From assembly GCA_000739535.1 (NCBI GenBank), contig DF820463.1:544727-603350 (forward strand): 58,624 nt of DNA, read 5' to 3'. Position numbers and translations under genes: made by a program. Below the pieces are notes generated by a model. It made no database searches and was not told the origin of the DNA. It worked only from the letters and a program-made list of their open reading frames with translations. The stretch's first letter is position 1; every line of letters begins with the position of its first letter. Below, one piece after another: positions 3,126-58,310 of the stretch. This stretch comes from Candidatus Vecturithrix granuli. GTDB lineage: Bacteria; Moduliflexota; Moduliflexia; Moduliflexales; Moduliflexaceae.

Positions 3126-3171
3126 TACATCCTATGTCTCATGGAATGTCTTGAGGCATGACGTAGTGATG

Positions 3172-3274
3172 TATAGCCATCCTAAATGATTTGTGTCTCG
3201 ACTCCGCTCGACAAACGTTGCGGTCACTGAGCGGAGTCGAAGTGACATGATACAACTGATTTAGAATGGCTATA
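3172..3274. mobile_element. TA-flanked MITE-like element, family F, copy 1
   Basis: The ends TATAGCCATCCTAAATGATTT and its inverted counterpart ending AGAATGGCTATA bracket a core with TCGACTCCGCTCGAC and GAGCGGAGTCGA. It is about 103 bp with terminal inverted repeats beginning TATAGC. Related copies lie at 52912-53013 and 58087-58189. The TATA ends would fit insertion at TA, as in IS630/Tc1 relatives, but no transposase is present. It sits in the gap before rpiB. Confidence 0.7.
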
Positions 3275-30141: not shown

Positions 30142-31307
30142 CTACTGCTTAATGAGTGACAATTCTTCGAGTATCTCTCCAAAATAGAGTTGTATTGCTG
30201 ATACCTGATCTCCCTCAGAAAGAAAATCACGTAAACTTCGTTCACGAATAATGCAAACATCGGGTTCCTTTATTGAATCCAGATTTTCTCCACGCCAACC
30301 AGGGCGCGAAGCAATTTCTTTCATGGCATTAATAATTTTGATTCTCTGATTGACTTCAACATTGGGTTTAGCTTTGATATAGAGCATGACTGTTGGGTAG
30401 TCCGTATGCATGGTATATCCTAATCCACACCAAACGTCTTTGCTCATATCTGCAAACATGATATATCGTCCCCAATCTTTCAAAAACTCTACACTTTTTA
30501 TTGGGGTACAGACAGAACCGACAACCTCTTTAAATTTTATTTTTACATCACCCCACATCGTTTCATAGAGAAGGTTAACAACTTTCTGCATGTTGGATAA
30601 CGTTAATACATCGGTGACAGTAAATTGGTTACTTTGTGCCATACCATGCTCCTCCATAAATTTCAGAATTTCAGTGGTAAGAATATTGACAGGTTGCCTT
30701 TGTAGAAAATTATAAAATGAATACCAGCGCAATTGTTTAAAACAGACATTATGTTCAGGGACTCCTTTAAGGACAATACGTTCATCTTTTGGGTCGAAAT
30801 CTCGAGTAATATAGAGCAATATCCGCGTATGTATGTCAGGTGTATTTGACAATATGGTAGTGGTTAAATAGTAAGTGATGTCCGCTCGTTGAGCGAAGTC
30901 GAAACGAGCCGCTCACTGTTCCCCTCGACTTCGCTCAGGGAACGCATCACTTACCATTTAACCACTACCGACAATATTTCAGCATAGCGAGTCAGTTGAT
31001 CTGCCCCTTCTCCTGAACCAAGTCTTGACTCAATCAGGATTATTGTCCGTTTTTCCCCTTCGAATAGCTCAATAAGTATGTCAGGGTAACTTGCGATCTC
31101 ATAGTGTTCAAGAGGAGCGAATCGTTGTTGAGTCATAATACGGGAATGGGTATAGATATATGGCTCTTTTACAAGATTGATATACTTTAACCAGTCACAG
31201 AGGAATTCATGAGATGTACCCAGCACGTATGCAACGATCTCTGTAAAAAAATTTTCAAGCGGGATTACTCCTGCATGAAGATGTAATAAGCGACTAAACA
31301 GTCTCAT
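30142..31307 (-). pseudogene. PD-(D/E)XK nuclease-like gene split by a MITE
   Basis: The 5' part (31307 down to about 30970) encodes a protein beginning MRLFSRLLHLHAGVIPLENF with ASYPDILIELFEGEKRTIIL and IESRLGSGEGADQLTRYAEIL, a PD-(D/E)XK-like core in which the usual Lys is Arg. The 3' part (30852 to 30142) continues SNTPDIHTRILLYITRDFDP and ends in EILEELSLIKQ. If the 114-bp insert and one copy of the 8-bp duplication are removed, the frames join exactly as AEILSNTPDIH. The intact protein would have about 347 residues. Function is unknown; similar proteins are often annotated as PD-(D/E)XK nuclease family. Both halves have no other disabling change, so the disruption looks recent. Confidence 0.85.
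30856..30969. mobile_element. MITE with 8-bp target-site duplication
   Basis: The 114-bp element begins GGTAGTGGTTAAATAGTAAG and ends with the inverted counterpart CTTACCATTTAACCACTACC. It is flanked on both sides by GACAATAT (30848-30855 and 30970-30977). The inside contains further inverted sequence TTGAGCGAAGTCGA and TCGACTTCGCTCA. It encodes no protein. A shorter relative with the same termini lies at 47925-47963. Confidence 0.92.
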
Positions 31308-39999: not shown

Positions 40000-40033
40000 T
40001 CACTCCTTGTGGTTACAGGGTTGTTTCTCCTCA

Positions 40034-40086
40034 TCTCGACTTCGCTCGATGAGCGGAATGCCGGACGTCGAGCGGAGTCGAGACGG
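40034..40086. repeat. Hairpin with family F core
   Basis: CATCTCGACTTCGCTCGATG and GTCGAGCGGAGTCGAGACG are imperfect complements. The core matches that of the TA-flanked elements at 3172 and 52912 but the TATAGC ends are absent. Confidence 0.6.
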
Positions 40087-40117
40087 CATCTATCAATGAT
40101 ATTATTTTTTTATTTTA

Positions 40118-40147
40118 TACTTTGTAAAATAAAGTACTTTATATAAT
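40118..40147 (+). promoter_or_regulatory. Promoter with AAAGTACTTT palindrome (operon 40177-43932)
   Basis: AAAGTACTTT (40131-40140) is followed immediately by ATATAAT (-10 box 40142-40147). The half site TACTTT also occurs at 40118-40123, giving TACTTT-N7-AAAGTA. The layout around the -10 box matches the promoter at 38815, so both units are probably controlled by the winged-helix regulator at 38965. Confidence 0.7.
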
Positions 40148-47924: not shown

Positions 47925-47963
47925 GGTAGTGGTTACGTCATCGCTGACGACGTAACCACTATC
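47925..47963. mobile_element. Short relative of the 8-bp-TSD MITE
   Basis: The 39-bp element GGTAGTGGTTACGTCATCGC ... GACGTAACCACTATC shares its termini with the 30856 element. It is flanked by TAAAATTT and TGAAATTT, an almost perfect 8-bp duplication. It sits just upstream of the dctP ribosome-binding site. Confidence 0.75.
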
Positions 47964-52860: not shown

Positions 52861-52911
52861 CTGGCCTTCGGAGCACCCTAAAGAGCGGAACTGAGGAACT
52901 CACGTTGAGTA

Positions 52912-53013
52912 TATAGCGATCCTATTTGATTCGTGTCTCGACTTCGCTCGACAAGCGTCCGGTCACTGAGCGAAGTCGAAGTGACATGTGACAAATGATT
53001 TCGGATTGCTATA
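52912..53013. mobile_element. TA-flanked MITE-like element, family F, copy 2
   Basis: TATAGCGATCCTATTTGATT and its inverted end TTTCGGATTGCTATA bracket a core TCGACTTCGCTCGAC / GAGCGAAGTCGA. The ends and core match the 3172 element, with extra TA dinucleotides on the outside. It has no coding capacity. Confidence 0.7.
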
Positions 53014-53046
53014 TATAGCATTATTCATGAGCATTAACCACATTCA

Positions 53047-58086: not shown

Positions 58087-58189
58087 TATAGCGATCCTAA
58101 ATCAGTTGTGTTATGTCACTTCGACTCCGCTCAGTGACTATGCCGGTTGTCGAGCGGAGTCAAGACACGAATCATTTAGGACTACTATT
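58087..58189. mobile_element. TA-flanked MITE-like element, family F, copy 3 (degenerate)
   Basis: TATAGCGATCCTAAATCAGT and the imperfect opposite end AATCATTTAGGACTACTAT bracket TCGACTCCGCTCAG and GTCGAGCGGAGTC. It matches the copies at 3172 and 52912 but the right end has drifted. Confidence 0.6.
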
Positions 58190-58310
58190 TCTTTAAGCCA
58201 TGGTCTGAGATAACAAGCAGGCATTAATGGAAATACACATTTTCCCCCTTTTTCTATCCCCGGAAGGGAATGGATGGAGTCGGGAATTTTAGAAGGAGTA
58301 ACAAACAGCA

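Follow-up and report, generated by a model that had tools for sequence, protein, structure and literature searches.

A 114-bp MITE with IS1-like ends inside a nuclease-like gene of Candidatus Vecturithrix granuli

The interrupted gene and the inserted element

Candidatus Vecturithrix granuli UASB270, a wastewater bacterium, belongs to the candidate phylum KSB3 (PMC4312070). The window, a stretch of 58,624 nucleotides from contig DF820463.1 of its genome, contains a minus-strand gene for a PD-(D/E)XK-like protein that is cut in two by a short element. The locus comprises the following features, in window coordinates:

30142–30852, minus strand: C-terminal half of the interrupted gene, 236 aa counted from a TTG; the frame continues into the element
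30848–30855, no strand: target-site duplication, left copy, GACAATAT
30856–30969, no strand: MITE of 114 bp, assigned to the IS1 family
30856–30880, plus strand: 25-bp terminal inverted repeat on the left, GGTAGTGGTTAAATAGTAAGTGATG; 22 of 25 positions are shared with the ends of the L102 IS1 element from another genome
30883–30944, no strand: core of two hairpins, with the 12-mer GAGCGAAGTCGA in opposite orientations at 30891–30902 (plus) and 30925–30936 (minus)
30945–30969, minus strand: right terminal inverted repeat, 25 bp
30951–31307, minus strand: 118-aa N-terminal half of the interrupted PD-(D/E)XK-like gene, ending at a stop codon within the element; candidate active site D76, E93-x-R95
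30970–30977, no strand: target-site duplication, right copy, GACAATAT

The original prediction of a 114-bp element between two perfect 8-bp copies of GACAATAT was right in coordinates and sequence to the base. The 25-nt arms are 96% complementary with a single mismatch, and the whole element forms one long hairpin with folding z scores of about -12 as RNA and about -11 as DNA. It has neither a transposase gene nor other coding capacity. In the window, GGTAGTGGTTA was found four times with at most one mismatch, at an expectation of 0.23.

Removal of the element and one copy of GACAATAT yields a single frame of 347 codons from an ATG through AEILSNTPDIH, and the insertion point corresponds to codons 111–113. 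In the filled site, the N-terminal reading frame, starting at 31307 on the minus strand, ends after 118 codons, and the C-terminal part is a separate frame whose TTG start falls within the target duplication. An uninterrupted plasmid protein of Fusobacteria ZRK30, annotated as PD-(D/E)XK, aligned with 26% identity across residues 1–347, thus frame and homologue both bore out the predicted splitting of one gene of about 347 residues. The rejoined protein matched the PADLOC PDC-S26 profiles (E 1e-7, residues 76–132) across the junction, and weakly Pfam PDDEXK_4 with an E-value of 0.015, below the cut-off. The candidate active site consists of D76 and E93-S94-R95, an ExR in which arginine takes the place of the lysine of ExK; the Fusobacteria homologue has E-K-K, as judged by eye from the alignment. 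Among 144 related genomes, a close orthologue was not found; one genome (G034) gave a weak match that also crossed the junction. A search for a solved structure matching the rejoined protein returned none. Between 30700 and 31400 no intrinsic terminator was found, and promoter-like sites were present at the level of shuffled sequence. The protein should be truncated within a few codons of the insert, and the split gene is very probably inactive. A putative restart of translation at the TTG of the C-terminal half is possible.

Copies, target duplications and age of the insertion

The host assembly, a metagenome bin of 8,384,694 bp in 21 contigs, has many N gaps at MITE repeats. At least 40 copies of the 114-bp element with at least 95% identity are present, and the genome has 185 exact ends GGTAGTGGTTA, where the reversed control gave 6. 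Exact 8-bp duplications flanked 41 of 63 elements examined; for the intact elements of the host genome, a subset counted from the same table, the proportion was 38 of 58. In the control, 37 of 3906 mismatched flank pairs (about 1%) agreed within one mismatch. The duplications have an average A+T content of 76%, compared with 52% for the window. Inverted ends of 25 bp, the lack of genes, the copy number and the duplications at most of the examined elements all upheld the earlier identification as a MITE. Elements with these ends occur in sizes of 47–50, about 110–115, 141, 179–197 and 304–306 bp; the 47- and 50-bp forms, whose duplications are still perfect, have the appearance of internal deletions. 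The same ends are not confined to the host: a scan of species genomes revealed MITEs of 171–172 bp with the exact 25-mer end in the Chloroflexi groundwater MAG JACRLB01, where exact 8-bp duplications flank two of the four, and in one other genome further MITEs combine these ends with 8-bp duplications.

Two private variants are common to the window copy and one other copy (L002), which is therefore its nearest sister among the aligned copies. Just two copies, the window copy and L021, among 18 whose duplications are intact have at least 60 codons of open frame on either side, so the disruption of a gene by this MITE is an exception. Together with the perfect duplication and the open frames on both sides, this rarity makes a recent insertion likely. 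The near-identical arms, also cited in favor of recency in the original prediction, are no sign of it, since every copy of the family has them. Proof of mobility had likewise been claimed; the duplication documents past transposition, whereas present mobility does not follow; an intact IS1 transposase gene was not found in the assembled genome.

The parent transposon and rival explanations

A genome search by the ends had been proposed as the way to the parent, and it led to the IS1 family and to a complete element in another genome. The element was detected by searching 400 relatives of JACRLB01 for the first 14 bases of the end; matches to this 14-mer alone occur in about chance number, and the weight rests on the IS1 genes that they enclose or adjoin. 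The matches in the single genomes L101, L105 and L106 look like chance. At L102:738–1514 lies an IS1 element of 777 bp with the ends AGTAGTGGTTAAATCGCAAGTGATA and GGTAGTGGTTAAATCGCAAGTGATA, identical to the MITE at 22 of 25 positions. It encodes InsA, a zinc ribbon protein (NCBIfam transpos_IS1, 1e-18), and InsB with the DDE domain (PF03400, 1e-21; NCBIfam, 2e-34), in a -1 frame relation at an A8 slippery run as read from the sequence. A target duplication was looked for at this copy and none was found. The likeness between MITE and IS1 element is limited to the ends. In genome G159 the same ends are present at four contig ends and adjoin the same InsB C-terminus.

The sole IS1 transposase gene found in the host assembly, with a second query in agreement, is a broken relic with a one-base frameshift in an A run and a TAG; its ends GGTAGTGGGTCAAATC and GGTAATGGGTTAAATC are related to those of the MITE. 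Two queries against the assembled host genome, 21 scaffolds with N gaps, did not find an intact IS1 transposase gene. At L095:1103–3042 (G000 C14, near 393,400–395,400) an IS1-family element was observed that is broken and has inverted ends of its own; it contains a gap of 968 N, perhaps another inserted element. Another genome has, at the end of a contig (L100, G040:C20:1–500), the remnant of an IS1-like transposase whose right end is CACTACC, the inverted form of GGTAGTG. Several candidates for a full parent were rejected. Matching ends 1581 bp apart (L031, C13:8928–10508) enclose an N gap, and what lies at the right belongs to the end of another repeat, which occurs without these ends at L066–L069 as well; probably another element was inserted in a MITE. 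This multi-copy element, ending in AATTACGTCTTTTCAAAG...GCGTAACATGACT, was seen at scaffold gaps at L031 and L066–L069, with one copy apparently inside a MITE. The copies at contig ends, L032–L034, are further MITEs with ends of the class of the 114-bp element. Viral contigs contained no IS1 relatives, no nuclease relatives and no exact ends.

Transposases of IS1-type elements act in trans on the ends and generate 8-bp duplications; for the IS1 family, target duplications of 8–9 bp are characteristic. As the explanation of the whole locus we strongly favor a non-autonomous IS1-family MITE that was moved by an IS1-type transposase in trans and interrupted the gene. An InsA-InsB' fusion with zinc ribbon and DDE domain, supplied in trans, would recognize the GGTAGTGGTTAAATNGTAAGTGATG ends and cut an A+T-rich target with an 8-base stagger, the repair of which would give the 8-bp duplication; the window copy would thus have entered the nuclease-like gene at codons 111–113 and ended translation within a few codons. 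From the ends, the length of the duplication and the target composition we infer movement by an IS1 transposase. The enzyme would once have been present in this lineage and have since decayed, or be hidden in assembly gaps; a resident parent in the N gaps would be an intact IS1 element with the ends GGTAGTGGTTAAAT.

Duplications of 8 bp are made by several transposase families, and the ends could be merely IS1-like while a transposase of another such family, e.g., IS1595, ISL3, IS66 or ISAs1, moves the MITE. That no intact IS1 gene was found in the assembled host is in line with this, as is a Microcystis MITE that was assigned to ISL3 from its ends and 8-bp duplications (PMC11448079). We nevertheless regard another mover as improbable, because the ends agree at 22 of 25 positions with those of an IS1 element that has both genes between them, four further IS1 fragments (G159) have the same ends, and a non-IS1 transposase was not seen between such ends in searches that covered IS1 transposases. 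Still less credit is due to the proposal that the two halves are separate functional genes with the element as an old, tolerated boundary. Both halves are indeed open, with a TTG in the duplication as the start of the C-terminal frame, which continues into the element, and the 144 genomes offered no close orthologue by which selection could be gauged; the duplication, however, is perfect, the homologue is one chain across the junction, and the candidate active site and the remainder of the fold lie on opposite sides of the element, which makes this reading very improbable. A structural hairpin repeat of the REP/BIME type with 8-bp repeats by chance would account for the strong folding and for the 531 occurrences of the core motif in the genome. 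Its probability is close to nil in view of the exact duplications of differing sequences at 38 of 58 host elements, where the control yields about 1% within one mismatch, and of the exact restoration of the gene frame.

The IS1 family, including IS1, IS1N, ISAba3 and the L102 element, has in common with the MITE the ends starting with GGT(A/G)(A/G)TG, 8-bp duplications and A+T-rich targets, but its members have about 770 bp and a transposase gene, while the MITE has 114 bp and none, and the insides are unrelated. Bacterial MITEs with similarly long inverted ends are reportedly the Nezha family of cyanobacteria, said to have been described by Zhou et al. in 2008. ISAba3-like IS1-family elements have 24-bp ends starting with GGTGGTG, and the Tn6645 insert bounded by them has 8-bp duplications (PMC6382973). 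MITEAba12 of Acinetobacter is also non-autonomous, measures 113 bp, has imperfect inverted ends and interrupts genes, and its parent was assigned from the ends and the duplication length only, as for the 114-bp MITE; it differs in its parent ISAba12, 9-bp duplications, 16-bp ends and an A+T-rich inside, for which a hairpin core was not reported (PMC6382973). A 187-bp MITE of Microcystis PCC 7806 likewise has an 8-bp duplication and a hairpin and cuts a gene in two, but carries ISL3-type ends GGCTCTTCG (PMC11448079).

We thus regard the 114-bp repeat as a new IS1-family MITE, a kind of element already known, and its insertion as clear-cut but rather ordinary. This provides an IS1-family parent for a high-copy MITE from a candidate phylum that only metagenomes have revealed; its ends are also present in other genomes, a Chloroflexi MAG among them. 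Dozens of copies retain perfect duplications in a genome whose parent gene seems to have been lost or broken: either miniature elements outlive their transposase, or the assembly hides it.

A hairpin core common to elements with different ends

The common hairpin core is a more novel lead than the MITE itself. The 12-mer GAGCGAAGTCGA occurs 531 times in the genome, against 0 for the reversed control, which is more than two per MITE copy counted. The core consists of two copies of GAGCGAAGTCGA or GAGCGGAGTCGA in inverted orientation, whose matched stems differ between elements. Among 30 sampled core sites, 21 core-bearing elements were recognized by eye, all belonging to four end classes:

Ends GGTAGTGGTTAAATNGTAAG (the MITE ends): 8 of 21; IS1-like, 8-bp duplications
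Ends GGTAGTGG..CCTGTACATGATG: 3 of 21; IS1-like, 8-bp duplications at L134 and L137
Ends TATAG.GATCCTAAAT (TATAGNGATCCTAAAT class): 4 of 21
Ends CAGGGCTGTTAAGTTCT: 6 of 21

At least two of the four kinds do not look IS1-like; the TATAGNGATCCTAAAT ends presumably resemble the IS630 family, and the CAGGGCTGTTAAGTTCT ends, as we take it, the ISAs1 family. This raises the testable question of what makes distinct transposons share one interior. That the core is a module acquired by elements of unrelated transposase families is a tentative suggestion, to which we give slightly less than an even chance; such a module is perhaps kept for the binding of a host factor or as an aid to replication or transposition. 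In the window, GAGCGAAGTCGA or GAGCGGAGTCGA cores with other ends were observed at 3170–3270, 40000–40120, 52905–53025 and 58090–58200, of the TATAG.GATCC type and, at 40000, of a degenerate CAGGG type.

REP palindromes of the GTAG and CGTC families resemble the core as high-copy hairpin pairs in dimer form, but have loops of 4–5 nt (CGTC) or a GTAG tag (PMC3733652). An identity of the core with CGTC-type REPs was rejected, as the described stems, loops and tails differ. The literature searched contained no description of the GAGCGAAGTCGA motif. A plasmid search with the MITE gave only a 33-bp core match, in Pseudanabaena. The hairpin CCTGAGCGAAGTCGAAGG occurs with differing complementary stems in 90 stretches of viral contigs, hence the motif is widespread; in many metagenomic viral contigs (L173–L252) its 12-nt center is invariant between stems that differ and remain complementary. 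A palindrome of 39 bp, GGTAGTGGTTACGTC...GACGTAACCACTATC, is located at 47925–47963 of the window, immediately before the ribosome-binding site of a gene on the minus strand; it is probably a trimmed MITE remnant and could fold in the leader.
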